34,071 nucleotides of DNA from Motilimonas eburnea (GTDB taxonomy: Bacteria; Pseudomonadota; Gammaproteobacteria; Enterobacterales; CBDFNC01): positions 1 to 34,071 of the forward strand of contig NZ_JAIMJB010000033.1 in the NCBI RefSeq assembly GCF_021295345.1, given 5' to 3'. A program made the translations under genes and the position numbers. The notes beneath the pieces were generated by a model, which searched no databases, was not told the DNA's origin, and was given only the letters and a program-made list of their open reading frames with translations. Numbering within the stretch: position 1 is the stretch's first letter; each line of letters opens with the position of its first letter. This document shows, one piece after another, positions 5,587 to 24,800 of this stretch.

Positions 5587-6354
5587 TCAGCAAGTAGCCA
5601 GCTCTGCTGTTAAAATCGAAGCCAACTTAGTTGCCACCGCTTTTATCACCAGCGATTTATGGGTTTCAATAAAGAAATGGCCACCATCAAAGATGACGTG
5701 GCTGACTGCACCGTCAAAATGCAGCTGCCAGTCGTGTAAGTCCTCTAACGGCACACCGCCGTCGTGCTGCCCACCTAAGATGGTTAAGTCACATGATAGT
5801 GCGGGTTTCATTTCACTTTGGTGGTTTTCAACCATGGTGAAATCTGCCCTCAGCATAGGCAGTAACATTTCCATAAAATCTTCATTATTCAGCACTTCTT
5901 CTGGGGTGCCGCCAAACGAGCGCAGCTTTTCAATAAAGGCGGCTTGCGGCAACTGGTGGATGGGAGAGTCTGTATTCTTGTAATGGGGCGCGCGCGAGCC
6001 AGAGGCAAAAAAATGTACCGGCAAAGGCCACTGCTGATGGCGAAAATACTGAACTAATTCAAAGCCTAATCGGCTGCCAAAACTATGTCCTAAAATGGCA
6101 TAAGGCAGATTTAGATGAGGCTTCATTTGCGCCGCCAAATCTTCTACCAATTGGGTTAAATCCGTATAAGGCGACTCGGCTAAGCGCATCCCCCTGCCCG
6201 GCAATTGTACCGCCACCAGCTCAACCTCATTAGGGAGATGTTCGGCAAATGGTAAATAGGTGGCACTGCTGCCCCCAGCGTATGAAAGACAAAATAATCT
6301 TAAACGCGCCTTGGCGTTAGGTTTAGGGACATGAAACCAAGGTTGGTTCATCAT
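5587..6354 (-). CDS. type II (editing) thioesterase of the PKS/NRPS pathway
   Basis: This 255-residue alpha/beta hydrolase is of the length usual for external type II thioesterases. These enzymes free stalled or mis-primed carrier proteins by hydrolysing wrong acyl groups. Visible signatures are LSYAGGSSATY near the N-terminus, PGRGMRL (residues 52-58), the nucleophile motif GHSFG with Ser91, the Asp198 region (GGQHDGGVP) and GGHFF with catalytic His226. The start ATG has an AAGGAAAT ribosome binding site upstream; a second Met follows directly. It is the last gene of the operon, 60 bases after the MFS gene. Because the last NRPS has no integrated thioesterase, this enzyme could also take part in product release, but its sequence looks like the editing class. 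Confidence 0.92.
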   Translation of the reverse strand: MMNQPWFHVPKPNAKARLRLFCLSYAGGSSATYLPFAEHLPNEVELVAVQLPGRGMRLAESPYTDLTQLVEDLAAQMKPHLNLPYAILGHSFGSRLGFELVQYFRHQQWPLPVHFFASGSRAPHYKNTDSPIHQLPQAAFIEKLRSFGGTPEEVLNNEDFMEMLLPMLRADFTMVENHQSEMKPALSCDLTILGGQHDGGVPLEDLHDWQLHFDGAVSHVIFDGGHFFIETHKSLVIKAVATKLASILTAELATC

Positions 6355-6414: not shown

Positions 6415-7722
6415 TTATACGTATGACGCTTGGCGTTCGCTCAATCCTTGCTCGTCATTAGCGAGTTCGATGGCAGGAATCGCCCCCATTCTTCTCACTG
6501 TGGGCAAACATAAACCAATAAAAGCGCAAGCCATAATGAAACTGCCTGCGACCATAACGACCCTTTCAACGCCATAGCCTTGGTTAAAATACCCTGCAAT
6601 CACGCCCGATAGTGGCATCAAGCCTAAAATACAAAACATCAACACCGACATCACCCGCCCCATGTATTCACTGGGAGTACGCAATTGGAACCAAGTGGTG
6701 CCGGCTATCATAATAAAGCCGGTGGCAACGCCAATCAGGCAGAGACAAAGGCCAACTAAACTAGACGTAGAGCTGATCACTCCTAGAGAGAGCAAGCAGC
6801 CGCCCGACACTAAATCGCCGAGCAAGACATAAACTCCTAATTGTGCCGGCTGTGGCCGCAGCCAAATAGCAATGCCTGCGCCGATTAAGGTGCCAACCCC
6901 AATCAAGGCGTATAAGGTGCCATAGCCCGCCTCGGTAAGTCCTAAATGCAATTTGGCAATTAAAGGCAGCGCCGCCAGTAGCGGCCCGTGCATAAAAAAC
7001 GAAATCAAAATTAAGTAGGCCAGAACTAATCTGATGCCCTTATCTAGCCAACAAAATTGAATACCTTGAAACACCAGCGTAAATACCCCTGCCGGTTTAC
7101 TGATGACAGGCTTTATCTTGATCCAATAAAGCAGCGAAATAGACACCAAAACCAGCAAGGCATCGACTAAAAAAGCCAGCGCCAAACTACTGGCGTCATA
7201 TTGCGTCACATCCACTTGATTTAAGTAGCGCATCAACCAAATCAGCCAGCCGGCTACTAAGGGGCCAGCAATTTGCGCCAATTGCGATGTGCCCATCACG
7301 ATGCCGTTGGCTAACCCTAGCTCTTCCTCTTTACATATTGATGGCAAGATCGACTGGCTAGCCGGAATGCCAAAAGCACCGAGCGTGCCCAGTACAGAGC
7401 CAAATAAACACAACAGTGCGATAGGCGTAAACTGAAAATACACGCAACTGGCTAAGGCGAGCATCACCAGCATCGCCACTTGCCTTGAGCGTAATAACAC
7501 CCGAAGCGGTGACCAGCGGTCGGCTAACGCCCCGCCAAACAGAATAAAAAAGCCGTGAGGCAGGCTAAAACTTGCCATCACCACCGACATTAAAAATGCG
7601 TCATCTTGGGTTTGATTGAGTACCAACCAAGGCAGAGCGACCAAGGTAAAATAGGCGCCCAATTGCGCCGTTGAGGTACTGGCCCAATGCAGCATAAAGT
7701 TTTTGTTTTGCAGTAACGACAT
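6415..7722 (-). CDS. MFS exporter, probable product efflux and self-protection
   Basis: This 12-helix major facilitator resembles the drug/siderophore exporters of the EntS-type branch (MFS_3). MFS motif A is visible as GGALADRWSPLRVL between helices 2 and 3, and the rest is alternating hydrophobic helices with a long central cytoplasmic loop. I chose the ATG at 7722 (435 residues). An in-frame TTG at 7758 would add 12 residues but lies inside the perfect hairpin at 7748-7768 and is spaced badly from any ribosome binding site. It sits within the operon between the secreted CxxCH protein and the thioesterase, so export of the lipopeptide is the natural inference; substrate and energy coupling (proton antiport) are inferred from the family. 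Confidence 0.9.
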   Translation of the reverse strand: MSLLQNKNFMLHWASTSTAQLGAYFTLVALPWLVLNQTQDDAFLMSVVMASFSLPHGFFILFGGALADRWSPLRVLLRSRQVAMLVMLALASCVYFQFTPIALLCLFGSVLGTLGAFGIPASQSILPSICKEEELGLANGIVMGTSQLAQIAGPLVAGWLIWLMRYLNQVDVTQYDASSLALAFLVDALLVLVSISLLYWIKIKPVISKPAGVFTLVFQGIQFCWLDKGIRLVLAYLILISFFMHGPLLAALPLIAKLHLGLTEAGYGTLYALIGVGTLIGAGIAIWLRPQPAQLGVYVLLGDLVSGGCLLSLGVISSTSSLVGLCLCLIGVATGFIMIAGTTWFQLRTPSEYMGRVMSVLMFCILGLMPLSGVIAGYFNQGYGVERVVMVAGSFIMACAFIGLCLPTVRRMGAIPAIELANDEQGLSERQASYV

Positions 7723-7747
7723 CACAGTCCCATTAGCTAATAAATCA

Positions 7748-7768
7748 GCAAGGGGCAAAGCCCCTTGC
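7748..7768 (-). other. intercistronic hairpin
   Basis: Perfect 9-bp stem, GCAAGGGGC and GCCCCTTGC with a 3-base loop, between the CxxCH protein gene and the exporter gene. The bases after it on the minus strand (TGATTTATTAG) are not a good T-run, so it could attenuate or stabilise the message within the operon rather than end it. Confidence 0.45.
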
Positions 7769-7792: not shown

Positions 7793-9478
7793 TTAGTTCG
7801 TCACGTTACACGCAGCGATGGGCGTCCATACATCCCATTCACCCGAATTAAGTGGCCACTGAGCATTGGTCCACCATTTCGCTTGGTATTGCTGACCATT
7901 GATCTGCACCACATCACCAGCGTTATAGACGGTGCCGTATTCCCACGTTGGCGCGCCGCCACAAACAGTTTTGTTCATGCCGTACCAAGAGGTTGAAATC
8001 TCAGGCCAAGTACCTATGGTTAAGATGTCATCGGGATGCTGAATGATTTGTGCTTTATCTTCCTCACTCCAATATCTATTTTGCGCTTGGTGACAGCTTT
8101 GACAGGTCGAGGTTTTGGTTCCCCATTTGCGATCAGCCAAGAAAAAGAAGTTAGGATCGTCACTTGGATCGTCGTTATGGTAACGCGCCGCAATCGCCTC
8201 TAAGTTATTTTCTCGGTGCAGCCAAGCCTCTTTGCCTATGGTCCAATCATCAAAGGCCAACATGGGGTTGTAGCGGTAAGTCAGTAACGAACGTGCATCA
8301 TCAATAGCACCTAACTTGGTTAGGTAATCAACATAACCCACTATCATGCCTAAGATATTGAAAGAAAAGCGCGGTCTGTCAATACAGGTTCTGATTTCTG
8401 GGCACACGGTAGTCAAGGCGCGCGTCCAAGCAAAGAAGCCTTCCATAAAGAGGTCTTTGTCGTCAAAGAACGTGATACCAACAGTGAATGAATGGAATAA
8501 CGGATGTAGCTCTAACCATTGTCTATGCTCATCATTTAAAGCCAGCTTAGCGCTTTGGTCTTGGTGCAGCTCGGCCAACCAACCGCGCTCCATCACAGAT
8601 AAACCGCCTAAAATGGGCGCTAAGCGAAATCGGTCGTTGTTGCTATCTTGTTGCCAGGCCTGCTCCATGCGCTTCGCCATTTTTAAGGTATGGTTAGAAA
8701 AATAACTCGCAATCAAGATGTTATGTAGCGCACTGGGATCATCGTAATCCGCTTCACCACCAATCCAAATATTGACGGCTTTGTTTAAAAAGCCCGTGAA
8801 TACGTTAGTTGGATCTTGGGCAAAGTCTTCTAGCAAAGCCGCAGCAGTTTCATAGCGCTGCGCTTCATTGTAGTTAAATGTTTCATAAAACTGGCTATGA
8901 ACTGGCCTGTCTTCGTTATAGGTCAGTGTGCTTGGGCTAAAAAAGGGCGCCAGTTTGTCGCTATTGGCTTTCTTTAGTCGCTTGGTCCACAGCTCACTGC
9001 CTGCTAAATCATCCACGCGATTTAAAAAGTAATCGACATAAATACTGTTTTTAAGTGCAACCCCTTTGCTTTGGGCTAGCCATTCATTCAACAAGGATTG
9101 ATTGGCGTAATACAAGGCTAAAAATTTAGCCAGTACGGCATCGGTTGGGTTATCTAAATAAGCGCTGAGTACCTTTTTCTCAAATACCGGTAATTCAATC
9201 TGGCTACCACGGGGCACGGGCGTGGTGTAATCAGAAATAGGGTCGCCGATATGGTTAAGCTTACCCGATGTAAGCTCAGCTAAATCAGCGCCCTGCAACA
9301 CAGGATGGGCGGCAAATAACCCTAAGGTGGCTTCAGACACTTCAATGCCTAAGCCATTTTGCTGCAATTGGCTAACAACCTCTTGGGTTGTGTCTGATGA
9401 AGTTGCCAGCACTTGACCAGAGGCCAGTGCACTGGTTATCAATAGCGATAACGCCAATGGTTTAACGAGTATGTTCAC
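7793..9478 (-). CDS. secreted protein with a CxxCH haem-type motif and C-terminal chitin-binding domain
   Basis: I chose the GTG at 9478 (561 residues) because AAGGA lies seven bases before it. The ATG at 9493, five codons upstream, has no ribosome binding site. The protein begins with a clear signal peptide (residues 1-25, ending SGQVLA). A large helical region follows (about 30-450) that I cannot assign. A single CQSCH motif at 459-463 is a standard c-type haem attachment sequence. The last 50 residues (about 509-557) match carbohydrate-binding module 5/12, with WEYGTVYNAGDVV, then YQAKWWT and a closing W and C. So it is exported and may bind haem and chitin-like polymers. It is the fourth gene of the operon, 60 bases after NRPS2. 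A role in redox tailoring, immunity or placing the product on chitin surfaces is possible, but nothing in the sequence decides between them. The CxxCH could also bind a metal. Confidence 0.75.
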   Translation of the reverse strand: MNILVKPLALSLLITSALASGQVLATSSDTTQEVVSQLQQNGLGIEVSEATLGLFAAHPVLQGADLAELTSGKLNHIGDPISDYTTPVPRGSQIELPVFEKKVLSAYLDNPTDAVLAKFLALYYANQSLLNEWLAQSKGVALKNSIYVDYFLNRVDDLAGSELWTKRLKKANSDKLAPFFSPSTLTYNEDRPVHSQFYETFNYNEAQRYETAAALLEDFAQDPTNVFTGFLNKAVNIWIGGEADYDDPSALHNILIASYFSNHTLKMAKRMEQAWQQDSNNDRFRLAPILGGLSVMERGWLAELHQDQSAKLALNDEHRQWLELHPLFHSFTVGITFFDDKDLFMEGFFAWTRALTTVCPEIRTCIDRPRFSFNILGMIVGYVDYLTKLGAIDDARSLLTYRYNPMLAFDDWTIGKEAWLHRENNLEAIAARYHNDDPSDDPNFFFLADRKWGTKTSTCQSCHQAQNRYWSEEDKAQIIQHPDDILTIGTWPEISTSWYGMNKTVCGGAPTWEYGTVYNAGDVVQINGQQYQAKWWTNAQWPLNSGEWDVWTPIAACNVTN

Positions 9479-9503
9479 ATTTTTGTCCTTCATAATTAAT
9501 CAG

Positions 9504-9553: not shown

Positions 9554-12500
9554 CTAGTCTTTGCTCAATCGAGTCAGTTCATTTAGGAAATGATCTGCCA
9601 ACGTCACGATTGTTTCTTTTTTATACAGGGTATCACTGTATGAAAATGTCACTTTTAGCTCGCCCGCAACCACATGAGCTAACACATAAAGTTTCCACTT
9701 ACGGCTCAATCTGTTATCGCGCCAAATGGCGTGATGATTGACCTCGTCGTAATCCACTAGCCTGACTAAACCGGTTTCTGCTGGCTCTAGCGAGTCAACG
9801 TCATCTAACAAGTTAAGGGCAATATCAGCACGGGGAATATTGGCCATCACTTGTTTAGCCTGTGCCGTTTGGTTTAAGTAACGCAGCAGTGGCAAAGACT
9901 TAAACTGGACAGACGCATTGGTAAATTGCGCCGATAAGGCTTGCATGCTGGCTGCGTCGCTCAGCTCAGCTTGGCAATGAAATGGCGTGGTATAAACATC
10001 AGAAAAATACCCCACCAAACGGCTTAAGTTTTTGCCTAACTCTTGGTCGCGTCGGCCATGGCGCTGAATATCTAAGTTCACATATGGGCTTTGGCTAAAG
10101 TGTGCAACGGTTTTAACCAAGGCGCTGGCAATGGCACTGCGCAGGCTGACATTATCCAGCTGCGCCAGTGCTTGCTGTAGCCCTTGGGTTTGCGCCACCG
10201 ATAAGCTGATCTCTAGGCCTTGGTTGCTGGCGACCAAGTTGGCCCCATCAAAGTCCGTTGGCAGTGGCTTAGCCTGTTGCCAATTAGCCTGAGCGATGGC
10301 GTTAAGCTCAGCTTGCAGCGCAGGTGAGTTGGCATAGGCGAGTAAAGCGTTGGCATATTGTGTGTAGCTGATATCGGCAGCGGGCAAACGCGGCGTTTCG
10401 CCTTGTGTCAACTGCTGGTAAACCGCAAAGAAGTCGTTTCTTAACACCTCACAGGAAAACCCATCAATCAAGCTGTGATGTATGGTGATCACCAGATAGC
10501 TATGATCGCCCTCACCAAAGTTTAATAGCGCCACCTGAAATGGATTATTGGCTAAATTAATGGTCAGCTGTAACTGCGCCACCAACTGTTTTAACTTATC
10601 GGCCTTGCTGGCTTGGAACCCAGCTAAATCATATTCCGTTAACCCATAGGCTTGGTGCTCGCTGATAGTTAGCTGCGCCGTTGCTTGAGCCTTGCTCATT
10701 CTGGCGCGCAAAATACTGTGGTATTTCAGCAATAAGTTAATGGTTTGATTCACCCGCGGGATATCTAACGCGCCGGTCTTAAATTCAAGAATGATGTTAC
10801 CGTTCCAATGGTTGATATCCCCGTTTGCGCCTTCCCCTTCGGCAAACTCAAACATCTCATGAATACTTGGCAATAATGGGATCGCCGCTTCGGCTTCGCC
10901 TGATAACTGTGTTAAATCAACTAAGTTATTCTGCTTGATCACGGTTTCAAGTTTGGCAATGGTTTGCTGGCGATGAATATCTTGAGCCTTAACGCTAAAA
11001 CCCAGATTTGAGAGTTTCGCCGCCAGTTTAATCAAGGTGAGCGAGTCTCCCCCCAGCGCGAAGAAGTTATCTTCTATGCCGATGGATTCAACGCCCAAAA
11101 CGTCTTGCCACACTTGACATAACTGGGTTTGCAGCTCGTTCGTTGGCGCCACTTGCTGCGTGGATGAGCCGACCAGCTCAACCTCAGGCAAGGCTTGACG
11201 GTCAATCTTACCATTGGGGTTTAATGGCAAGGCGGGCAGCACTATAAAGCCCGCTGGCATCATGTAATCCGGTAAGTGGGTTGCCACTAACTGCTTGGCT
11301 TGCTCGATTAGTTCACCGTGTTGCGCAGTGTCACCTTGCGCCGACACTAAGTAAGCAAGGATGCGGTCGGGGTCAGTTTTGGTAATGACATGAACCTGCG
11401 TCACTTGTGGGTGCAGCAATAAGGTTTCTTCAATTTCACCTAACTCGATACGACAACCGCGAATTTTGACTTGGTGATCATTGCGGCCAATAAACTCTAA
11501 GCTACCATCGGCGCGCCAGCGCATTTGGTCACCGGTTTTATACAGGCGCTGGTTAGGATCAAAGGGGCTAGTGATAAAGGCCTTGGCCGTCATTTCAGGT
11601 TGATCTAAGTAATCAATGGCCAAACAATCACCGCTCACGTAAAGCTCACCTGTGACCCCCACGGGCAATAATTTAAGCTGTTCATCGAGCAGGTAAACTT
11701 GCGCATTGGCTAGGGGCTTACCCACTGGAATTAACCATTTATCCAGTCCCTTTTGATCTGGACTGGCTAGCTGAGTAAAGCCATTAACCCCTTGAAGATG
11801 CTCAGGCTCGAAGCATTCTTGAGCAATGCGCATTTGATCCTGCAATACCGCTTGTAGGCTATTAAATTCGGTAAGCGGGTTACTCAGCACCACACGAAAT
11901 ACACGGCTGCCGTTCACGCCATGTTTATCTAAGAACAAGGTGGTTTTAGAGACAAAGCTGCGCCCTGCTCTAAACTGCTCTTGTTGGATCACTTCCACCG
12001 CATCGTTTAATCGCTCTAGCTCGGCCAAGGTATAAGGCTGCTCGCTGCGATCTATACCGCGCAGGTCACTTGGCACATAACGGTAGTTAATGATATTGAG
12101 ATCCGGTATTGCCCCAACGATTTCAAAGCAATTAGAGGCTTGGATCAGTTTCACAAAGTAAGCCGTTTTTTCCATACTTTGCTCGACCAAACGGCCATAA
12201 CCCGGCTTAGAAATCAAATGTAAGCTGGCATGCAGCAATAGCGCATTGGCCGGCCTTGAGCCTTCTAAGGTGTATTGTCCCATGTCAAAACTACCCGGCT
12301 GAGCTTGGTAATTGGCATGAGTCGCAATGGCTTGCAAACTGGCCGTGTCTTTAAACAAACATAAGCTAATGCCTTGAGGCAAATAAAGCTGCTTATGGGG
12401 GCATAAGGTTATGGAATCGGCCTGCTCTATGCCTCTGAGTTTATATTGATACTTATTAGAAAATTGGAACGCCCCGCCCCACGCCGCATCAACGTGGAAA

Positions 12501-15500
12501 TGCAGTTTATGGCGGCGAGTGACCTCAGCGATTTCCTCAAGGGGATCCAAGGTACCGGTTTCCGTTGCCCCCGCGATCCCTATCACAGCCGCAATATAGA
12601 TATTGTTGTCTTGGCAATACTTAATGGTTTGCTCAAGGTGCTTGATAGACATGCGCTGCTCTTCATCTTGCTCGATAGCCAGCAAATTGGCTTGGCCGAT
12701 ACCAAACAAAGAGACGGTCTTTTTCATCGAGTAATGCAATAAGCGGCTGCCCAAGATCACCATGCGCTGGTAACCTTTTTGCTGCAGCGCCCAGTTCAAG
12801 CCGTGTTTATCTAGGTCTTGCTTGGCGATGCCGGCCTTGATCAAGCCATTGTTGCGTGCATACAGCAGCGCCGTCACATTAGACAAACTGCCGCCGCTGG
12901 TGACTAAACCAAATACATGGTGAGGATCTTGGCTAAAGGCGTCGTAGTATTGGTTATCAAAGTTGTAAAACAGCTTATGCATGGTTGAGATCACTTGGCG
13001 CTCAATCAAGCTCATGCTGCCCGAGGTTTCTATCTTCACCAAGTTTTGGTTTAACTGGGCAATCAATTTACTGATTTCGGGCATAAAGTTAGGCAGCTTA
13101 GATGTCATGTGGCCGACAAAGGTATCGGCGGTGACATCCACAGTGCCAGGCAACACACTGGTTTTTAACTCATGCAAATAATCAGAAAAACGCGCCGCGA
13201 CCAGGGGCATATCTGTGCTGCTAAATTGCTTACTCAAGCCTTTCACATCGGCGCCCAGACGCGGTGCGACGCTGCTTGCATCCAAGCTTGCGGCCGAGTT
13301 AGTCGGCCCATTGAGGGGCGCATCTTGGTCGAGAAAGTGCTGTAATAAACTTAAATCTAAATCGCCGTGGCGCAGCTCATAAGCCAGCACGTCCGCGCCC
13401 ACTTCCGTTGAGCCGTATATGTTATACAAGGTGACATCGGGCAGCTTTTGTTGAAACGCTTTTGCCACATCCATGGTTAAGGCTTCACCGCTGGAAATAA
13501 CGCAGCGCAGCGACGGTAAGGCATTAGGGTCACTCAAGCTTTCTAATAACACCCGCAGCAATGACGGCACTAAGGTAATGCGTGAAATCCCGTGTTGGTC
13601 GACCGCCTCGAGTAAACTTGGCAAGTCGCCCACTTGCTGATCGCTTAGCACCACTAAATGTTTGCCAAGGGAAAAAGGCTGAAACACTTCCGCGACATGG
13701 TCTACAAAAGCCAAAGAGGTTTTATGACAAAACACATCTTGCGCCACTGGGGGAATATATTGGTTCATCCACTCAACGCGGTTAACCATGGCGCGATGAC
13801 TGCCGCGCACCCCTTTGGGTTTACCCGTTGAGCCCGAGGTGTAAATCACATAGGCCACTTGTTCGGCATTCACCGTGCTACTTGCAACGTAATCTTCTGA
13901 GCATTTTGCTAGCTCAGATTGCACCTGTTTGTCATCTAAACACACCCCTTGCGCGGCGCTCACTGGCGTCGTTTGCAGCAGTTCAAGGTGAGTTAACACT
14001 GTGGTTAACTTGGCGTCAGTTAGCATATAGGCCAAGCGCTTAGCTGGGTTATTGGCCGCCAGTGGCACATAAGCCGCCCCCAGCTTTAAGATAGCCAGCA
14101 TACTGACTAAAGAATCTAGACTGCGCGGCAGGCAAATACCCACTAAATCGCCCGCTTTCACTTGGCGATTCTGGCATAAATACTGGGCTAACTGGTTGGC
14201 CTTCGCGTTTAATTGGCCATAGCTGGTATGCGCTTCGCCCACCACCACGGCGAGTTTTTCCGGTGTCGCCAGCGCATGTTGCTCAACCAGTTGGTGCAGC
14301 AATAAATCGCGAGAATAAGGCGCTTGAGTTTGGTTCCATTCAACCAATTGCTGGCGGCGCTCGGCCTCGGTTAAATAATCCAGCTGATAAACACTGACGT
14401 CAGGTTGAGCCGTTAACTGTTTCAGCAAGTTTTCAAAATGCTGCCCCATGCGCGCGATGCTTTCCGGCTCGAATAAATCCGCGTTGTACTCCCAATGCAG
14501 GGCTAAACCGGCTTGGTTTTCGCTGACATACAAGGTGAGATCAAACTTGGCGTCTTGGCTGCTTAGAGTCATCGGCTCTAGGGTTAAGCCATCAAGGGCA
14601 AAGGCCGCTTGTTCATTGTTTTGCAGCACCAGCATAACTTGGAATAGTGGCGTGTAATTGGCGCTGCGCTCAGGGTTTAAACGCTCCACCACTTGCTCAA
14701 ACGGTGCTTGCTGATGCGCATAAGCTTGATACAAGTTATCGCGACTTTGCTGCAGTAAGGTCGCAAAATTTGGCCGCTGTGACAGGTCAGCTCTGAGCAC
14801 TAAGGTGTTCGCAAAAAAACCAATGATGTCGGCAACTTGCTCTTGCTCCCTATTTGCAATCGGGGTGCCAATCACTATGTCGCTTTCATGGCTGTAGCGC
14901 GCCATTAACACGGCGAGTGTGGCGTGAAGCCCCATAAACAAGGTGGCGTCGTGTTGCTGACAAACGCGATTTAGTTGATCCTTTAACGGCGAGCTTAACT
15001 GCTGTTGGTGCACGCCGCCCGTAAAGGTTTGCATCGCACTGCGCGGATGGTCTAGGGGTAAGTTGTGCACTAATGGCAAGTCTTCAAGCTGGTGTTGCCA
15101 ATAGCTGAGTAACTTTTCTAATCGCTCACCTTGTAGCCACTGACGCTGCCACGCCGCATAGTCGGCATATTGAATAGGCAGTGGCGGCAAGGGATTTGAC
15201 TCCCCTTTAACTAAAGCCGAATAGACACTGAGAAACTCTTTCACCAGCACCGTCATCGACCAACCATCACTGGCGATATGATGCAAGGTCACGTACAAGA
15301 TATGCTGCTGCGGCCCTAATTTAACTAAAGCGCTGCGCAACATAAAGTCACGCTGTAAATCAAACGTCCCTTGGACTTGCTCGGTTTCAATTTGGCGCAG
15401 CCCTTGATCTTGGTGCGTCTCCTCGCTCAAATCATAGTGAGCAAGACAAAACTCCTCTACCGGGCGTAAATAAAGGCGCGGGTTGCCATTTTCGTCGCTA

Positions 15501-15898
15501 AAAAAGCTGGTGCGCAGGCTATGTTGACGCTCAAGCAAGATACTAAAGGCTTGATTGAGTAACTCTGTCTGTAACGGGCCGTCTATTTTAAGCCCCTGTG
15601 CCATGTTGTAATGAGAGCCTGGCCCCTCAAGCTGATCCAGTAGCCACAACCTTTGCTGGCTAAACGACAAGGGTAAATTGTCTCGCTCTGCCACCGGCTT
15701 TATCTGCGCGTTGGGCTCAGCCTTTTCATTATTTTTCAAATAGCTCACTAATTCGCTTTTTGCCGACTTTAACGCCGCCACTAGCTCAGGCGTCAGCGCC
15801 TCCTTGTTGCCACGAATTATCAAATCTTGTTTGCTATCAAGACCTAATCTAATACCGCTTGCCTTTAATTGGCTTAGTAAATCCATTACCGCATTCAT
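9554..15898 (-). CDS. NRPS module with PLP decarboxylase inserted in its A domain (predicted beta-alanine module) and terminal E-like domain
   Basis: This 2114-residue protein contains, in order: TubC-type docking domain (1-56); condensation domain (about 76-505, HHIASDG at 206-212); first part of an adenylation domain (about 535-840, with A3 YTSGSTGKPKG and A5 YNIYGSTE); an inserted group II PLP decarboxylase (about 841-1387, PLP lysine Lys1169); the rest of the A domain (about 1388-1570, A7 YKTGD, A8 GRNDHQVKIRG, A10 Lys1564); carrier protein (LGGDS, Ser1619); and a terminal condensation/epimerisation-like domain (about 1673-2114, HHSLIDG at 1807-1813). The ten pocket residues read VDATISIADK (V732, D733, A736, T775, I801, S803, I827, A835, D836, K1564). 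Val-Asp in place of Asp-x is the beta-amino-acid pattern and resembles the beta-alanine code VDWVISLADK as I recall it. The start overlaps the NRPS1 stop by ATGA. There is no thioesterase domain. Confidence 0.93.
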   Translation of the reverse strand: MNAVMDLLSQLKASGIRLGLDSKQDLIIRGNKEALTPELVAALKSAKSELVSYLKNNEKAEPNAQIKPVAERDNLPLSFSQQRLWLLDQLEGPGSHYNMAQGLKIDGPLQTELLNQAFSILLERQHSLRTSFFSDENGNPRLYLRPVEEFCLAHYDLSEETHQDQGLRQIETEQVQGTFDLQRDFMLRSALVKLGPQQHILYVTLHHIASDGWSMTVLVKEFLSVYSALVKGESNPLPPLPIQYADYAAWQRQWLQGERLEKLLSYWQHQLEDLPLVHNLPLDHPRSAMQTFTGGVHQQQLSSPLKDQLNRVCQQHDATLFMGLHATLAVLMARYSHESDIVIGTPIANREQEQVADIIGFFANTLVLRADLSQRPNFATLLQQSRDNLYQAYAHQQAPFEQVVERLNPERSANYTPLFQVMLVLQNNEQAAFALDGLTLEPMTLSSQDAKFDLTLYVSENQAGLALHWEYNADLFEPESIARMGQHFENLLKQLTAQPDVSVYQLDYLTEAERRQQLVEWNQTQAPYSRDLLLHQLVEQHALATPEKLAVVVGEAHTSYGQLNAKANQLAQYLCQNRQVKAGDLVGICLPRSLDSLVSMLAILKLGAAYVPLAANNPAKRLAYMLTDAKLTTVLTHLELLQTTPVSAAQGVCLDDKQVQSELAKCSEDYVASSTVNAEQVAYVIYTSGSTGKPKGVRGSHRAMVNRVEWMNQYIPPVAQDVFCHKTSLAFVDHVAEVFQPFSLGKHLVVLSDQQVGDLPSLLEAVDQHGISRITLVPSLLRVLLESLSDPNALPSLRCVISSGEALTMDVAKAFQQKLPDVTLYNIYGSTEVGADVLAYELRHGDLDLSLLQHFLDQDAPLNGPTNSAASLDASSVAPRLGADVKGLSKQFSSTDMPLVAARFSDYLHELKTSVLPGTVDVTADTFVGHMTSKLPNFMPEISKLIAQLNQNLVKIETSGSMSLIERQVISTMHKLFYNFDNQYYDAFSQDPHHVFGLVTSGGSLSNVTALLYARNNGLIKAGIAKQDLDKHGLNWALQQKGYQRMVILGSRLLHYSMKKTVSLFGIGQANLLAIEQDEEQRMSIKHLEQTIKYCQDNNIYIAAVIGIAGATETGTLDPLEEIAEVTRRHKLHFHVDAAWGGAFQFSNKYQYKLRGIEQADSITLCPHKQLYLPQGISLCLFKDTASLQAIATHANYQAQPGSFDMGQYTLEGSRPANALLLHASLHLISKPGYGRLVEQSMEKTAYFVKLIQASNCFEIVGAIPDLNIINYRYVPSDLRGIDRSEQPYTLAELERLNDAVEVIQQEQFRAGRSFVSKTTLFLDKHGVNGSRVFRVVLSNPLTEFNSLQAVLQDQMRIAQECFEPEHLQGVNGFTQLASPDQKGLDKWLIPVGKPLANAQVYLLDEQLKLLPVGVTGELYVSGDCLAIDYLDQPEMTAKAFITSPFDPNQRLYKTGDQMRWRADGSLEFIGRNDHQVKIRGCRIELGEIEETLLLHPQVTQVHVITKTDPDRILAYLVSAQGDTAQHGELIEQAKQLVATHLPDYMMPAGFIVLPALPLNPNGKIDRQALPEVELVGSSTQQVAPTNELQTQLCQVWQDVLGVESIGIEDNFFALGGDSLTLIKLAAKLSNLGFSVKAQDIHRQQTIAKLETVIKQNNLVDLTQLSGEAEAAIPLLPSIHEMFEFAEGEGANGDINHWNGNIILEFKTGALDIPRVNQTINLLLKYHSILRARMSKAQATAQLTISEHQAYGLTEYDLAGFQASKADKLKQLVAQLQLTINLANNPFQVALLNFGEGDHSYLVITIHHSLIDGFSCEVLRNDFFAVYQQLTQGETPRLPAADISYTQYANALLAYANSPALQAELNAIAQANWQQAKPLPTDFDGANLVASNQGLEISLSVAQTQGLQQALAQLDNVSLRSAIASALVKTVAHFSQSPYVNLDIQRHGRRDQELGKNLSRLVGYFSDVYTTPFHCQAELSDAASMQALSAQFTNASVQFKSLPLLRYLNQTAQAKQVMANIPRADIALNLLDDVDSLEPAETGLVRLVDYDEVNHHAIWRDNRLSRKWKLYVLAHVVAGELKVTFSYSDTLYKKETIVTLADHFLNELTRLSKD
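11738..13378 (-). other. inserted PanP-like aspartate 1-decarboxylase domain within the A domain
   Basis: Residues about 841-1387 of NRPS2 make a full-length group II pyridoxal-phosphate decarboxylase. Visible marks are FVGHMTSKLPNFMPEISKL, KIETSGSMSLIERQV, TSGGSLSN (1000-1007), the cofactor Asp1137 in HVDAAWGG, the Schiff-base lysine Lys1169 in CPHKQLYLPQG, YTLEGSRP, and the C-terminal GRSFVSKT with VFRVVLSNPLTEF. This matches the Vibrio/Shewanella PanP-type aspartate decarboxylases (TIGR03799 group), which make beta-alanine from L-aspartate, more than glutamate or diaminobutyrate decarboxylases. The family's usual length of roughly 540 residues fits the insertion. The left joint lies just after A5 and the right joint just before the PVGKPLANAQVYLLDE segment that leads into A6. 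Confidence 0.88.
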
Positions 15899-18800
15899 AT
15901 TGTTAATTCCACTTCGTCTGATAACAAATTATCGTCTTGCTCTAACTGGACACTCGATAAGGTTTCCAGCTTGTCTACGGCTTGCGCCAAGTGCGCTAAG
16001 GTCTCGATAGCAAAGAAATCCTTTAACGCGAGGTTAATGTTGAAACGGCTGTTGATCTTAGTGACCAACTTAGTGGCCGCTAATGAATGGCCGCCCAACT
16101 GAAAGAAGTTGTCGTCACGTCCCACTTGAGTCACGCCTAAGGTCTGCTGCCAAAGCTCTGCAAGGGCTTGCTCTGTGGCAGAAACTGGCGCGACATACTC
16201 ACCACGCACTTGGCTTAAGTCCGGTGCCGGTAAGGCTTTTCTATCTATTTTGCCGTTGGCCGTTAATGGCATAGCCGCCAGTAACATCAAACTATTTGGC
16301 AGCATATAGTCAGGCAGTTGCTCACTTAAAAAGCTGCGCAATTGCTGGCTAAATGCCCCTTGGTCGACAACCGGCGCGGCGGTAACCACATAAGCGGCGA
16401 TCAGATCGGGATCGTTTTGCGCCATCACCACACATTGAGCAACATCAGGGTGCTGAATAAGGCGAGACTCGATTTCGCCCAGCTCTATCCTAAAGCCGCG
16501 AATTTTCACTTGATGATCTAAGCGGCCCAAGTATTCAAGCTCGCCACTGGGTAAGTAACGCACCAAGTCACCGGTGCGATAAACGCGCCCTAGCGCCTTG
16601 TTTTCTGATGTAAATTTCTCTGCCGTTAAGGCTGGGCGATTAAAGTAACCCTTGGCTAAGCCCGCACCGCCAATTAACAGCTCACCGGCGACGCCTTTCG
16701 GCACCGGTTGCAATTGCTGATCAACCACATAGAACTGGGTATTGGCAATCGGCCGGCCAAGAGAAATACGCGATTCATGACTCAGTTGTTGCACCGATGA
16801 CCAAACACAGGTTTCCGTCGGGCCATACATGTTCCATAAATCGATATGGCTTTGCTGAGTTAAGGCTTGTTTTAACTTAAGGCTCAAAGCCTCACCGCCA
16901 CACAAGACTTTAAGTGGCGCGCTGGCTTGCCAACCATCATCCAGCAGCATATTCCAGGTCGCGGGCGTAGCTTGCATTACCGACACCTGATGCTGCGCTA
17001 TTAATGCGCGCAGCGCACTTGGATTGATGGCATCATCGCGACTTGCTATTACCACTTTAGCACCGGTGATCAACGGCAAGTAAAGCTCTAAGGTGTGAAT
17101 ATCAAAGGACAATGACGTCACCGCCAGCAAGCTATCTTTTGCTGTTAATCCCGGTTGTTGTTGCATCGACAGTAAAAAGTTACTCAAGGCGCCATGTTGG
17201 ATCATCACCCCTTTGGGCTGACCGGTAGAGCCCGACGTGTAAATAACATATGCCAAATCTTGGTCTGTTACCGTCACCTCGCTGACGTCAGCCGAGCTAT
17301 ATGCCGACACATCGGTATTGTCTAGATCCACCACCAATTGTTCATTAAGCGCTAACACCTCAAGCAAGTGGCTTTGGCTTATCACCACTTTAGCGCCGCT
17401 ATCGGCCAACATGTAAGCCAAGCGCGCAGGCGGGTAACTTGGGTCTAATGCCACATAAGCCCCGCCCGCTTTAAAGATGGCAAGCAAGGCCACCAGCATG
17501 TGCTCGCTGCGCTCAACACTGATAGCAACCAAGTCGTTACGACCCACCCCTTGCGCTATCAAATGACGCGCCAGTTGATTGGCTTGCTGATTGAGGGCTT
17601 GATAGCTCAAGCTGCTATTGCCAAAACACACAGCCGTTTTGTTTGGCTGTAACTGAGCTTGCTGTAAAAACAGCTGTGGCAAAGGCAATTGCCCTAAGCA
17701 CACCGAGGTATCATTAAGCTCACTAACGAGGTAATGCGATTCCTGCGCAGACAAAATGGGCGCGGCAAACACACTTTGCTCAGGGGCGGCCAGTAGACCA
17801 TTGAGTAAAGTGGCAAAACTTGCCGCGAGCTGCTCTATGGTTTGACGATAGAAGAGATCTTGACTGTATTCCCAATTAAGGGCGAGTCCTTGCTCGGTTT
17901 CACGCACATATAGGGTTAAATCGTACTTAGCCTTACATTGGTTAAATGGCACTTCGGTCACTTCAAGCTCAGGCAAATCAATTTGCCCTTGCTGATTATT
18001 TTGCAGCACTAGCATCACTTGAAATAAAGGGGTGTGACTCACGCTGCGCTCGGGTTGCAGCATGTCAACGAGCTGTTCAAATGGCACCTGCTGATGATCA
18101 TAGGCATCCAAACAAGTTTGTTTACTTTGCGCTAGTAAGTCGCTAAAGCTAGGGTTGGCCGAGAGATCACTGCGCAGCACTAAATTGTTTACAAAAAAGC
18201 CTAATAACGGCGCAACTTCACCTTGCTCACGGTTAGCGATGGCGGAGCCAATCACTATGTCTTTTTCGTTGCTGTAGCGAGATAGCAGCGCAGCAAACGC
18301 CGCGTTAAGTCCCATAAACAAGGTGGCTTGATGTTGCTGACAAACTTGTTGCAGCTTTATCACAGTGTCTTTTGCGATGACTTGGCTAACCATAGCGCCA
18401 TTAAAGCTCGGCATGTTTGGCCTTGCTCTGTCCAGCGGTAAACTGTGTACCCTAGGTAAATCAGCCAATTGCTGCTGCCAATAGCCAAGCTGCTGGTCGA
18501 GATATTCCCCTTGCAACCATTGTCTTTGCCAAATCGCATAATCAGAATATTGCACCGCTAATGGCGCAAGTGGATTGGCTAAGCCCTGAGCAAACGCGCT
18601 ATAGAGCTGACTGAATTCTTGCATCAGTAAGCTCACCGACCAACCGTCTGACGCGATATGATGCTGCGTCACCAATAACACATGCTCATTATCCCCAAGT
18701 GCCACTAAGGTCGCGCGAAGCATCAGGTCAGTGACCAGATCAAAACCGGTTTCCAGCTCCTGTTGCATTAACTGGGTCAATTGCTGCTCTTGTTCATCCT

Positions 18801-21800
18801 GGCTAATGCCTTTTAGATCAAGCTGATGAACCTTAACCTGCACTTGCTGCTTGATGACTTGCTTAGGTTCAATGGCGTCATAACCCGTGCGCAAAATGGC
18901 ATGGCGCTCAACCAAGGCTTGCATGGCTTGCTCCAGCGCATTCACATTCATCTGCCCCGTCAGGCGAATGGCCGTGGGCATATTGTAATGGGCATTAGCG
19001 CCCTCGATTTGGCTTAAAAGCCATAGACGCTGCTGAGCAAAAGAAAGCGGCGCCTCGGTTAGGGGTCCATGGGCGGTGATCTTTAAGTGAGTCTGGGTTG
19101 TTTCACTTTCGATGGCGGCGACCAGCTCGGCAACGGTTTGCACTTGGAATAGGGTTTTCACCGGCATGGCTAAATCAAACCATTGATTGATCTTGGCCAT
19201 GACCTGAGTCGCCGTTAACGAGTGTCCGCCAAGCTGGAAGAAGTTGTCTTGTAAACCCACTTGCTCTTGATTGAGCACGCCTTGCCAAATCTCACAGACT
19301 TGCTTTTCTAGCTCTGTGGTTGGGGCGACATAAGTGCGGCTCAGCTCAAGTTGAGGCGACGGTAAGGCGCTGCGATCTAACTTGCCATTGCGGCTTAGAG
19401 GCAGCTCAGGGAGCACCATGATCACACTGGGCACCATGTAGTCAGGCAATTGCGCGGCCAATTGCGTGCGCACACTGGCGATAAGCTGATCGTTTGATAC
19501 GGAATCACCCGATTGAGCGACCATGGTTTTTGCAACAAGATAAGCAACCAAAGAGGATTGACCTAACTTGTCTTGATGGGCCAAGACAACGCCCTGTTTA
19601 ACTCCCTCACAAGCAAGCAGGCTTTGCTCTATTTCACCTAGCTCAATACGAAAACCACGAATTTTAACCTGATGATCCACTCGGCCTAAAAACAGCAGCT
19701 GGCCGTTTGGCAACCAGCGCACAAGATCGCCGGTTTTGTAAAGTCGCTGCACAGGCTCATTGGCATTAAAACTATGCTCAATAAAGCGCTGCGCCGTTAA
19801 ATCCTCACGATTCAGGTAACCGCGGCCCACTCCATCACCACCGATATAAAGTTCACCGATAGCGCCCACGGGCAATAAGCTCAAGTGGCTGTCCAGCACA
19901 TAAAGCTGGGTGTTGGCGATGGCGCGACCAATCGTTAACGGGGCACCGGGCTCAATAACCTGCATGCTGGCGCAAACGGTGGTTTCACTTGGGCCATAGG
20001 CATTAATTAACCGATAGCGCTGCGACCAACGCTCAGCTTGGCGCGGGTCGCACGCTTCACCGGCCACAATTAACGCCTCTAATGCGTAATGAGCGTCAAT
20101 ATCTAAATGGGGCAACAAGGATGGCGGCAAGGTAGCATGGGTGATTTTTTGCTCCACCAAAAGCTGTTGTAACAAGTCGGGGTTAGTGCGGCTTTCCTCG
20201 CTGCAAATGTGCAACGACGCCCCTTGCATTAACGCCATTAACCATTCAAAGGTGGCGGCATCAAAGCTTAATGACGCAAATTGCAGCACTTTGCTTTGCG
20301 GTGTGACAAAAAAGCGTTGGCCTTGGTCATAGGCCAAATTCACCGCGCCGCGATGCTCCAGCAAGGTGCCTTTAGGTTTGCCCGTGGTGCCCGAGGTATA
20401 AATCACATAGGCCAAATTACGGTTGTTTTGCTCTGGCAGTAATACCGGCTCTTGGCTTGATTGCCCGTCGATTTCGTCTTGCACTTGATCTAGCACTAAA
20501 CGAGCCGTGCGCACCTGTAGGCCCGCCAGCATGTCGTTGTAAGGAGCTTGCGTGATTACTAAGGGCGCTTGGCTATCTGCTAACATATAGGCCAAGCGCT
20601 CGGCGGGATAATTGGGATCAAGTGGCAGATAAGCGCCGCCGGCTTTTAATATCGCCAGTAAGGTCACTAAGGTGTCCACCGAGCGTGACAAACACACACC
20701 AATAATTTGCTCAGGCCCAACTTGATAGGTTTGGCGTAAATAATGGGCAAGCTGATTCGCTTTGGCGTCCAGCTGGCGATAACTTAACGCTCCTTGCCCA
20801 TCGGTAACCGCCAATTGCTCAGCAAAGGTTTGCGACGTTTGGGCAAATAATTGCTGCACACATAAGGTATCGGGATAAGCTTGTTGGCTTTGGTTCCACT
20901 CGATTAATTGCTGCTGCTCCGACGCTGAAATCCAGTTTAAGCGAGCGATAGGCTGCTCTGGCGTTTGGGTGACTGCGCTGACCAAGTGATTAAAGTTTTG
21001 CGCCATGGCCGCTATGGTTTGCGCCTTAAACAAATCCGCGTTGTATTCCCAGCTTAGGGATAAGCCTTGCTCGGTTTCATTGACGCTGATGGTCAGATCG
21101 TATTTGGCCACTTGATTTGCTTGCTCTACCTCAGTGATTTGCAATGACGGCAAGCTGACCTTAGGCATTTCATTGTTTTGCAATACCAAAAGGATCTGAA
21201 ACAGTGGGCTATGACTCGCGCTGCGCTCAGGTTGTAAACGCTCTATCACTTGTTCAAACGGCGTTTGTTGATGGCTGTACGCCTCCAGCAAGGTCGTCTT
21301 ACTTTGCGCCAGTAATTGCGCAAAGCTAGGCAAGCCCGAAACATCGGCGCGCAACACTAAGTTATTAATAAAAAAACCAATCATGGGCGCGACTTCGGCT
21401 TGCTCACGGTTCGCGATGGGGGTGCCGATAACGATGTCGGTGCTGTGACTGTAACTGGCCATCAAATACGCTAATGCGCTATGTAAGCCCATAAACAAGG
21501 TGGCGCCATGCTCTTGACACAAGGCGTTAAAACTTGCGCGGGTGGTTGGTGGCAAGACAGATTGCACCTGTGCGCCGCGATAGGTTTGGATGTCAGGTCT
21601 TGGATAATCCAAGGGCAAACTGTGCAGCGCAGGTAACTCGGCTAACTGCTGCTGCCAATAATCCAGCTCTTGGTTTAATCGTTCAGGCGTAAACCAGCGC
21701 TGTTGCCAATGGCTGTAATCGGCATATTGATAGGCTAATGGCGCTAAGGCCAGCGCCTCCCCCTTAACCAAATGGGTGTAAATTTGACTGAGCTCTTGCA

Positions 21801-24800
21801 TCAGAAGGCCAACGGACCAACCATCGGCGGCGATATGGTGTAAGGTCACCAGCAATTGGTGCTGATTGCTTGCCAACTTAATCAGCTGAGCCCTGAGCAT
21901 CAGATCCGATGCTAAATCAAACTCACCTTTCGCCTCTTGTTCAATCAAGGCTTCGCAGGCCTTGGCTTTTTCCTCACCGGCTAAGTCAGATATATCGGTG
22001 AACGCTAAGCTAAACGCACGCGGATCTTGGATCACTTGATAGACTTGGCCTTGCTCTCCCGAAGCAAAACAAGTGCGCAAGCTTTCATGGCGCTCAATGA
22101 CAGCAGTAAACGCCCGCTGCAATGCGCCAACGTCAAGGTCGCCTTCGAGCAAGAGGGTTTGGTGCATATTGTAATGTGCGCTGCTGCCTTGAATATGATC
22201 AACCAGCCATAACCGCTGCTGAGCAAATGAAGCGAGTATCGGCTCGCTGCGATCAACGCGGTTAAATGGTAGTGACTCGTTGGCCGTTTCTTGTTCAACT
22301 TCTTGCTCAACTTCTTGTTCAATCACTTTCGCCAATTGGGCTAAGGTTTGATGTTCAAACAGCTGTTTCACCGCCAGATTGATAGCAAATTCATGATTGA
22401 CCTTAGCGATCACTCGGGTTGCCGATAAGGAGTGGCCCCCCAGCTGGAAAAAGTTATCTTGCAAGCCAATTGGGTCTTGCTTGAGCACTTGTTGCCAGAT
22501 TTGACCTAGCTTGATTTGAGTCGAGGTGGTTGGTGCTTGATAGGTTTGACGTTGGCCTTGCCAATCTGGCTCAGGCAGCGCGTGGCGATCCACTTTACCA
22601 TTGCGATTTAACGGCCAAGTGTCCATCACTATCAGCTGGCTTGGCTGCATGTAATCAGGTAACTGGGCTTGAAGCTGCGCGCTGATTTGCTGTGCACTGA
22701 TTTGCTCATTGGCCACTTTAACGTAAGCCACCAAGTGTTTTTGTTGCTGCTCGTCTTGCTTGAGTAGCACCACGGCATTGAGTACGCCGTCACAGCTGGA
22801 CAGTTTAGCTTCCACCTCGCCAAGCTCAATTCTAAAACCGCGTAACTTCACTTGGTTATCACGTCGCCCGATATATTGGAGCTGACCATCTGGCGTGCGC
22901 TTTACTAGATCCCCGGTTTGATACAACTTGGCATTGTCGCGATAAGGGTGCTCAATAAATTTCTCGGCCGTTAATTGACCTTGATTTAAATAGCCTTGTG
23001 CTAGACCAAGACCGCCCACATACAGCTCGCCAACACAAGCCGCGGGCAGCAGCTCTAGCTTGGGCCCTAAAATCAAGGTATCAAGATTATCAATGGCTTG
23101 CCCTATAGCAGGCCAAGAATCGGCAGGAGCCGAGGTAGCATTAAATGTTGTAGCCACATGGGTTTCGGTTGGGCCATAGTGGTTCCACAATTGGCACTGG
23201 CTGTGGGCATCGAAAAACTGACGTAATTCTTTGCTCATATACAAGGCTTCACCGGCCACGATCACTTCGCGCAAACAGCTAAGCTGAGTTTGGCTAAAGT
23301 GTGTTTGCTCGGCAATCAATTGCAGCACCGCGGGTGGCACAAACAAACGCGCAATTTGCTGTTCGTTAATCAACTGAGGCAGCAATTGCAGCTGCGCTTT
23401 TTGCTCCACCGTCATCAGCACTAACTCACTGCCCGTGTGCCAAGCGGTGGCGAGCTCTTGGATCGACACGTCAAAGGTAAGGGGCGTAAATTGCAAGGTG
23501 CGAAGTGGCTGAGTTAAACCGTCTTTTTGCGCCGTTGAGACCACCAAGTTGGTAATGGTTTGATGGGTTTGTAGCACCCCTTTTGGCTGGCCTGTGGAGC
23601 CAGAGGTATAAATCACATAAGCCACCTGCTCTGCGCTAATGGCAAGATCAAGATCTTCGCCACTTAAACTCGCCCAAGGCGCCGTGGCGTTTGGCTCATC
23701 AAGTATCACTGTGGTGATGCCAGTTTGGTGAATGGCTGCCAAATTGGACTGGGTGAGCACTAAAGCGGTGCCACTGTCTTCAAGCATGTGCTTTAGACGC
23801 GCAGACGGCGCGTTAGGATCAAGCGGCAAATAGGCCGCGCCCAGTTTTAATATCGCCAAGATAGCAACTAAGCTGGCTGCCGAGCGCTCAACTAACAAGG
23901 CAACATAGTCAGCTTGGTTAACCTTGCAATTTTGTTGTAAATAGCGCGCTAGCTGGTTTGCTTGTCGGTTTAGATCACCATAGCTTAAGCTTAAATATTC
24001 AGCGCTAAGCTGCGGGGCGTGGATGGCGATGGCATCGGGATTGAGTTTGGCTTGACGCTCCAGCAATTGATGAATACATAATAGCGATGATAAATCGACT
24101 CTCGGCTCAGCTAAACTCGGCGCTAAGGACAAGGCCAATTGCTGCTGTTGCTGCGCATCACTAAGCATTGGCAGTGCAAAAATGGCTTGCTCTGGTGTGG
24201 CCATGGCCTTGGCCATTAACAGCTCAAAGTGCTCGGCCATGTTTGCCACGGTTGCATCAGTAAAGATGTCGCAAGCGTATTCCCAGGTTAGCTCAAGGCC
24301 GTTATTGGTTTCGACCACGTCGAGACTTAAATCAAATTTCGCGTGCTGGGTTTGCTGCGCCAGTGGCGTGATGTCCACGCCCGCTAGGCGCGGGATCCCC
24401 GCGGCATTATTTTGCAGTGCCAGCATCACCTGAAATACTGGGCTGAGGTTAAGGTGGCGCTCAACCTGCATCTGCTCAACTATGTATTCAAAGGGTGCTT
24501 GCTGATGCTCAAAGGCTTCTAGCAAACAATCACGGCAAAGTTGCAGTAGATCCTTAAAGCTGGTGCAGGAGTTAAACTCGGTGCGAAGGGCTAAGCTGTT
24601 GACGAAAAAGCCCACCAAAGGCGCAAGTTGGTCATTATCTCGGTTTGCCGTTGGCGTGCCGATAACGATGTCGGTGTCATTGCTATAGCGCGCCATTAAG
24701 GCCACCAGCCCAGCATGGAGCAGCATAAACAAGGTTGCCCCCGACTGCTGAGCAAATTGTTGCCATCTGGCGCGAGTGTTGACATCCAAAGTTCGGGTTA

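Follow-up and report, generated by a model that had tools for sequence, protein, structure and literature searches.

A PanP-family decarboxylase splits an adenylation domain between motifs A5 and A6 of a Motilimonas nonribosomal peptide synthetase and may make its substrate

Interrupted adenylation (A) domains of nonribosomal peptide synthetases (NRPSs), including those of TioS, KtzH, SolF and others, carry inserted methyltransferases, oxidases, monooxygenases or ketoreductases (PMC11355689, PMC8097286, PMC8949500, PMC10204066), and the insertion sites listed in PMC8097286 lie at A8-A9, A2-A3 and A4-A5. A PF00282 decarboxylase embedded in an A domain has been described in JamL, the jamaicamide polyketide synthase-NRPS (UniProt Q6E7J8), its function being reported as unclarified in 2013 (PMC3870968). 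Here we describe an NRPS encoded on a contig of Motilimonas eburnea (NZ_JAIMJB010000033.1; the whole stretch of 34,071 nucleotides that was analyzed is called the window), in which a pyridoxal phosphate (PLP)-dependent decarboxylase of the PanP family lies inside an A domain, between core motifs A5 and A6. This site matches none of those described, and we do not hold the site essential for membership of the interrupted A domains. The arrangement suggests a self-supplying A domain, in which the insert would convert L-aspartate to beta-alanine and the surrounding A domain would adenylate and load it. We consider this reading probable.

The NRPS is encoded by one open frame without internal stops. 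Its features are listed below, all on the minus strand.

9554-15898, minus: NRPS of 2114 residues, TubC_N-C-A(N)-[PLP decarboxylase]-A(C)-PCP-C, where C is condensation and PCP peptidyl carrier protein (single open reading frame; Pfam)
15734-15886, minus: TubC_N docking domain, residues 5-55 (PF18563, 30 bits)
14348-15685, minus: condensation domain, residues 72-517 (PF00668)
13370-14284, minus: N-terminal part of the A domain, ending just past A5, residues 539-843 (PF00501, TIGR01733; motifs A2-A5)
13700-13705, minus: pocket residues V732-D733, positions 235/236 (FVDH(V/L)AE in 5/5 Motilimonas loci)
13250-13369, minus: variable N-linker, residues 844-883 (low conservation among orthologues)
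11825-13249, minus: inserted PanP-family PLP decarboxylase, residues 884-1358 (TIGR03799, 495.8 bits; PF00282)
12392-12394, minus: PLP-binding Lys1169 in CPHK (invariant in the alignment)
11732-11824, minus: variable C-linker, residues 1359-1389 (comparison of nonsynonymous divergence, dN)
11186-11731, minus: C-terminal part of the A domain, A6-A10, with K1564, residues 1390-1571 (PF13193; second stretch matching the A-domain model; motifs)
10943-11125, minus: PCP carrier domain with GGDS, residues 1592-1652 (PF00550)
9557-10891, minus: terminal condensation-like domain with HHSLIDG, residues about 1670-2114 (second PF00668 stretch; motif)

The Pfam search matched AMP-binding in two stretches (best 539-839), AMP-binding_C at 1488-1564, Condensation in two stretches (best 72-517), PP-binding at 1592-1652 and Pyridoxal_deC (PF00282) at 945-1264. 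A5 (NIYGSTE, residue 826) and A6 (GELYVSG, residue 1417) were 591 residues apart, whereas the neighbouring NRPS has three A domains without interruption, in which this distance is 49-51 residues. The insert occupies the loop that runs from the strand after A5 to the PIGxPxxN segment preceding A6. All A core motifs looked for (A2-A8 and A10) were found on the two sides of the insert and the catalytic K1564 was kept, so the core motifs are split by a catalytic domain within one chain, as is characteristic of interrupted A domains. An earlier note, made from the letters of the window, had claimed a decarboxylase of about 545 residues at A5-A6 with the A core motifs complete around it; this architecture is confirmed, with an insert of about 540 residues. 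The note had also known of no decarboxylase at A5-A6. A decarboxylase in an A domain has a precedent in JamL (PMC3870968). No description of an A5-A6 decarboxylase or of the Motilimonas protein was found in the openly licensed literature, as far as its texts were accessible. The main text of the Motilimonas genome paper mentions no NRPS, decarboxylase or antiSMASH (PMC13182010).

The same insertion was present at the same point in five loci, the window included, of all four Motilimonas genomes examined; a published table lists seven (PMC13182010). Over the A domain with its inserted decarboxylase (A-dec-A), the other four loci were 41-81% identical to the window and each was one continuous frame. 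An assembly or annotation artefact was rejected on the strength of these relatives in four genomes and has practically no chance of being correct. Two loci, G001:C89 and G003:C67, were orthologues of the window with 85-86% identity in the insert, while the inserts of G002:C139 and G003:C7 were 54% and 50% identical and belonged to at least one other assembly line. In G003:C7, C-A[dec]A-PCP opens its protein and a TubC_N-C protein lies downstream; in G002:C139 the upstream side ends at the contig end and the next protein bears a Condensation domain. These two were sisters in the decarboxylase tree and may represent one kind of line. Motilimonas therefore has the insertion in two or more kinds of assembly line.

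Genome scans with a five-row model (E-value limits 1e-150 to 1e-170), over genome sets that partly overlapped, found A-dec-A in 4/394 genomes of the order (the four Motilimonas), 2/369 of the class (the window's own genome and G575), 1/398 of the phylum (its own) and 1/3 of the order of G575. The large scans scored two candidates per genome, and non-detection there is weaker than absence. None of 396 genomes of another order gave A-dec-A, and one standalone decarboxylase turned up among them. None was found on plasmids: a single record out of 1041 reached a cover of 80% or more, and it was an NRPS with an adjoining panP. The viral-contig scans gave no relatives. The search for further A5-A6 insertions thus returned four Motilimonas loci besides the window and a freestanding protein of G575.

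We next consider the identity of the insert. TIGR03799 (PanP) matched the whole protein at residues 884-1358 with 495.8 bits and the insert alone with 500.3 bits (insert residues 43-518 of 547, profile positions 48-522 of 522), leaving the first 47 profile positions unmatched. The next decarboxylase model, NF052646, reached 148.5 bits, and a better alignment to another decarboxylase was not seen. The decarboxylase residues H1055, D1137, K1169 and R1335 (the His, Asp, PLP Lys and carboxylate Arg expected of PanP) were retained and invariant in 5/5 Motilimonas loci, in agreement with the hallmark residues claimed earlier, including Lys1169 and the active-site Asp. The description as PanP-type held for the best match and the catalytic residues, and failed at the equivalog cut-off of 606.1 bits, under which the insert scores; we therefore use the label PanP-family and not PanP. 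Decarboxylase trees likewise placed the insert closest to PanP yet outside the true PanP clade. These trees left out the broken decarboxylase H12 (L076), the second Cupriavidus P-10 copy (H9, L080) and the partial order matches L047 and L048, and the second and third trees were further built without 10 of the 21 full-length PanP rows from the order. A separate PanP-like clade (family f25; L052, L053 and L054) was also observed in three genomes, with frames of 517-554 residues scoring 465-472 bits, under the cut-off; no assembly line was seen near these genes, judged from open reading frame sizes and starts only.

The A-domain pocket was read as V732, D733, A736, T775, I801, S803, I827, A835, D836 and K1564 (VDATISIADK), with position numbers that we take to be those of GrsA. 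Asp733 occupies position 236, Val stands at 235, and position 331 holds Asp, with no cationic residue there. The shift from 235 to 236 was read from an alignment of FVDHVAE with FDISVAE of LgrA, and the two divergent Motilimonas loci read VDATISLGDK by eye. The V-D pair and the overall code thus agree with the earlier reading. V, I or G followed by D at 235/236, together with membership of the clade described below, characterizes the putative beta-alanine type to which this domain belongs, and VDxVISxADK-like codes are presumably those of beta-alanine.

The earlier note had further taken the shift as a rule for beta-amino-acid A domains. This does not hold in general, as VinN holds the beta-amino group with Asp at 235, and a like mode of binding is ascribed to IdnL1 and CmiS6 (PMC11253843). 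The shift marks this A-domain clade and not beta-amino-acid A domains generally. A VinN-type pocket was rejected for the window, which has V at 235 and D at 331 in place of Asp235 and Arg331 (PMC7756342, PMC11253843).

This difference bears on a second possible route, in which the A domain would activate the beta-carboxyl of aspartate, treating it as a beta-amino acid, and the insert would strip the alpha-carboxyl from isoaspartyl-S-PCP. Such chemistry has parallels: in the AfcQ/AfcP pair, acting in trans, carrier-bound aspartate is decarboxylated and beta-alanine is not activated (PMC12186527), on-carrier decarboxylation has been proposed for BolO/BolN (PMC7756342), and inserted methyltransferases likewise act after loading (PMC11355689). 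A 2013 survey speculates that embedded PF00282 domains, having lost their N-terminal segment, might decarboxylate on the carrier (PMC3870968), and the window insert too is without a match to the first 47 PanP positions. In VinN-type pockets, however, Arg331 holds the alpha-carboxylate and Asp235 the amine, whereas the window has Asp331 and its Asp at 236. The insert is also PanP-family and not of the BtrK/VinO type, a difference that we presume. We consider the on-carrier route unlikely and prefer decarboxylation of free aspartate, because 331 is Asp and 235 is Val.

An amino acid that has lost its alpha-carboxylate can be adenylated only if a second carboxylate was present. Because of this, and because the Asp236 pocket suits a beta-amino acid, the substrate of the insert would be aspartate or a 3-substituted aspartate, and L-aspartate is the predicted one. 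The same in-cis logic could apply to 3-methyl- or 3-hydroxy-aspartate, with a substituted beta-alanine as the product. Active-site surroundings that are unlike those of true PanP leave room for this, as does a related A domain of Nostoc sp. ATCC 53789 in a line that presumably uses methyl-beta-alanine. Against it, no mutase or hydroxylase match was found among the window open reading frames scanned, and the window has Val at 235 where the Nostoc domain has the smaller Gly, so that less room is left. We judge a substituted substrate to be quite improbable.

A decarboxylase query matched 224 plasmid records, and the best-ranked 14 standalone PanP-like genes (35-42% identity) were examined, with 9 kb per side read for H1, H5 and H10 and 20 kb for the others. 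Nine of these 14 lay within 20 kb of NRPS or polyketide synthase (PKS) genes, and six of the nine assembly-line loci contained an A domain with F(V/I)D at 234-236. With a wide pattern, the motif occurred in 7/29 A-domain-like matches of the nine PanP-linked loci (two Halomonas ones being identical) and in 0/36 of five control loci without a PanP-like protein; another count of the same comparison gave 7/28 versus 0/31. Fisher's test on 7/29 versus 0/32 gave p of about 0.004, a value that assumes independent A domains, which they are not. The controls were six non-PanP loci hand-picked from the A-dec-A query matches and not random, one of which (L081, Nostoc sp. ATCC 53789) was set aside before the count; with it, 1/6 control loci has the motif. 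This plasmid locus has a PanD-type aspartate decarboxylase, no PanP-like protein and an Asp236-type A domain that reads FGDHVAE, with LYGSSEVAAD. Among the rows compared, no other A domain without an interruption stood closer to that of the window (43.3%). We take this locus to be the cryptophycin cluster, in which CrpG, presumably a cluster-borne aspartate decarboxylase acting in trans, would make the beta-alanine or methyl-beta-alanine unit.

One A-domain clade (100/98; 12 of 43 rows) contained the PanP-linked domains, four Motilimonas domains, that of G575 and that of Nostoc ATCC 53789. The members lying less than 20 kb from a PanP-like gene came from Mycetohabitans, Paenibacillus, Nostoc, Gloeocapsopsis and Halomonas. 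In the loci seen, the Asp236-type A domain is accompanied by a predicted aspartate decarboxylase of one of two families, either inside it or nearby. The claim that the module makes its substrate in cis is supported by the PanP-family insert within an Asp236-type A domain and by the trans loci of the same clade; its weaker parts are the exact substrate, L-aspartate being a prediction, and the activation on the spot, a channelling that is likewise predicted. Six plasmid NRPS/PKS clusters from five genera (L062, L063, L066, L071, L073 and L074) carried the PanP-like gene and the Asp236-type A domain in trans. Some cluster-borne PanP-like genes were annotated panP with a pantothenate role, and in Mycetohabitans endofungorum B5 (L076) a panP-like gene beside an NRPS was annotated in pieces and is apparently broken.

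Comparison of the window with M. cestriensis gave the lowest dN of all domains in the decarboxylase (0.066), versus 0.224 in the C domain, 0.182 and 0.144 in the A parts, 0.148 in the PCP and 0.256 in the terminal C domain; the linkers varied most (0.33-0.37). Synonymous divergence (dS) was saturated for this pair, the PCP excepted. Against E26, the decarboxylase had a dN of 0.069 and the other domains 0.142-0.266. For the closer pair, E26 and M. cestriensis, dN/dS was 0.036 in the insert, 0.036 in the C-terminal A part, 0.039 in the PCP and 0.052-0.079 in the rest. The insert thus ranks with the most conserved parts of the protein, and over the longer distance it is the most conserved of all.

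In G575, a distant gammaproteobacterium (2.0 Mb, 87% complete), a freestanding A-dec-A protein of 1062 residues (L025:7259-10447) was interrupted at the same place. Its decarboxylase motifs were retained, with 118/173 of the PanP-invariant columns defined below. In this genome no Condensation domain and no PanD were found, PanC being present, and no PanD was found in G435, its 96%-complete sister. The protein has possibly been reused as a cellular beta-alanine source. G575, with its decayed A part and kept decarboxylase, is also what speaks for the insert being a passenger or relic, or a general source of cellular beta-alanine unrelated to the substrate of the module. In Motilimonas, by contrast, neither part has lost its motifs, conservation of the decarboxylase is strong and PanD is present, and we hold a passenger role to be very improbable there. 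Pantothenate supply as the role of the insert in Motilimonas was rejected, as PanD was found in all four genomes.

The inserts were monophyletic (97/93) in decarboxylase trees without G1315. A standalone decarboxylase of G1315 fell inside the insert clade, with Motilimonas and apart from G575 (99/96); both G575 and G1315 are long branches. The G1315 region (L090, L091) encodes the decarboxylase, an amidohydrolase, an AMP-binding protein, an ATP-binding cassette (ABC) transporter and a nicotianamine-synthase-like gene. It also contains an NRPS with five PCPs, in the first module of which, by motif spacing only, an A domain seems to be lacking. The trees fit a single insertion with later excision and two insertions alike, and the two cannot be told apart; a decarboxylase may have left or entered an A domain on more than one occasion. 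The likely start would be a cross-phylum pairing in trans between a PanP-like enzyme and an Asp236-type A domain, after which the decarboxylase would have moved inside the A domain in one lineage.

From architecture, motifs, conservation and clade membership, as read from the sequence, we infer the reaction, its place before adenylation and the local supply of the product. The inserted alpha-decarboxylase would convert free L-aspartate to beta-alanine. The A domain would then adenylate beta-alanine, Asp733 being placed to hold the beta-amino group and no cationic residue standing at 331 to bind an alpha-carboxylate, and the product would be loaded on the PCP of the last A-domain module in the PKS-NRPS line. 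Fold-type-I PLP enzymes act as dimers whose active site lies where the subunits meet (PMC3870968), and the NRPS subunit is for this reason probably dimeric. PchE, an NRPS that also carries an inserted domain, can dimerise (PMC8807600); it is a loose parallel, as its interface is formed by Cy and Acore and not by the insert. Channelling of the product may likewise occur. A fuller picture is tentative, and we give it somewhat less than an even chance: the decarboxylase dimer would be the core of a dimeric NRPS, the monomer would be made beside the A pocket and captured by the same polypeptide, the cis arrangement would stem from the trans pairing, and one lineage would have decayed to a freestanding decarboxylase, maybe a supplier of beta-alanine.

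Several observations weigh against the self-supplying A domain. The insert falls short of the PanP equivalog cut-off (500.3 versus 606.1 bits), and of the 173 columns that are invariant among 21 true PanPs, the five inserts all keep 94, while 79 are changed in one or more of them. Some of these changes surround the active site, beside the catalytic Lys and in the presumed catalytic loop (DAHK to CPHK; HH..R..K to TH..Q..F), so that the substrate can be no more than predicted. The presumed match of the pocket code to beta-alanine found no confirmation in the literature searched, where beta-alanine appeared only within a training set. In the closer pair, dN/dS of the insert was not below that of the C-terminal A part. 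No assembly line was seen for five of the 14 PanP-like genes (four Cupriavidus, one Aeromonas); two of these records were annotated and three were unannotated there and judged by the A-domain pattern alone. In three of the nine PanP-linked assembly-line loci, the stretch read showed no A domain of the FVD type, and the linked loci were picked via the decarboxylase and not via the A domain. In G575 the A part has decayed in the A3 motif and in the pocket (VVGH for FVDH, Asp236 to Gly). AlphaFold2 on residues 535-1571 with a six-row alignment gave a mean predicted local distance difference test score of 42.8, a predicted template modelling score of 0.38 and 755/1037 residues below 50, and this unusable model was discarded. 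Finally, PanD already gives free beta-alanine in the cell and the decarboxylase of the pleosporacin cluster was dispensable in a heterologous host (PMC12177691), so a benefit of fusion is not obvious.

The interrupted-A NRPS sits downstream of a PKS and a three-module NRPS. The other features of the cluster are as follows.

15895-25695, minus: upstream three-module NRPS with uninterrupted A domains, used as internal control (Pfam; motifs)
25692-32150, minus: PKS with ketosynthase, acyltransferase, dehydratase, ketoreductase and acyl carrier protein, KS-AT-DH-KR-ACP (Pfam)
5587-6354, minus: separate thioesterase (PF00975)
6415-7758, minus: major facilitator superfamily (MFS) exporter (PF07690)

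The three A domains of the upstream NRPS, read by eye, have codes that we take to be Pro-like, Phe-like and Gly-like, and the line may on this account build polyketide-Pro-Phe-Gly-beta-Ala. It terminates in the condensation-like HHSLIDG domain without an in-cis thioesterase, the thioesterase gene (5587-6354) being separate, and the product may be released through amide formation or cyclisation. A 566-residue protein at 7793-9493 (minus) starts in the manner of a signal peptide, carries a haem-c-like motif (CQSCH) and has CBM5/12 as its tail (29.1 bits). Open reading frames of like length occupy the same place in E26 (565 residues) and M. cestriensis (575 residues).

If true, the self-supplying reading would define a class of interrupted A domain that makes its substrate instead of decorating it. 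The locus is a genetically simple and conserved system in which it could be tested whether an insert can produce what its own A domain activates and hand it over, and it offers two or more kinds of line in one genus as well as uninterrupted relatives with the decarboxylase in trans. In sequence, the A5-A6 site lies near the pocket loop (330/331), which suggests a possible use in NRPS engineering. The linkage of an Asp236-type A domain with an aspartate decarboxylase, if upheld in an unbiased survey, would be a genome-mining marker for beta-alanine modules. Jamaicamide contains beta-alanine, and the decarboxylase of JamL would become testable by analogy.

Compared with known systems, the window NRPS resembles JamL, described as ...C-HxxPF-A-PLP4-A-CP, in having a PF00282 domain inside an A domain. 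JamL differs in being cyanobacterial and in its decarboxylase, classed as diaminobutyrate decarboxylase in a table and as glutamate-decarboxylase-like in the discussion of PMC3870968; the two were compared by description only. Interrupted A domains are alike in holding an enzyme between core motifs while the A domain is complete in other respects, but inserted methyltransferases work on carrier-bound substrate (PMC11355689), whereas the window insert probably acts before adenylation. PanP (TIGR03799) is the nearest family, alike over nearly its full length and in the catalytic residues; it is standalone, while the inserts form a separate clade below the cut-off. PleC and DtxS4 are in-trans aspartate decarboxylases for beta-alanine supply to NRPSs (PMC12177691) and, unlike the window insert, are separate proteins. 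VinN/VinO, BolO/BolN and AfcQ/AfcP likewise convert aspartate to a beta-alanyl-type unit with an A enzyme and a PLP decarboxylase, but as separate proteins, with on-carrier decarboxylation and a D235 and R331 pocket. The A5-A6 site, the decarboxylase subfamily, the trans-to-cis comparison and chemistry before adenylation would set the Motilimonas system apart from these.

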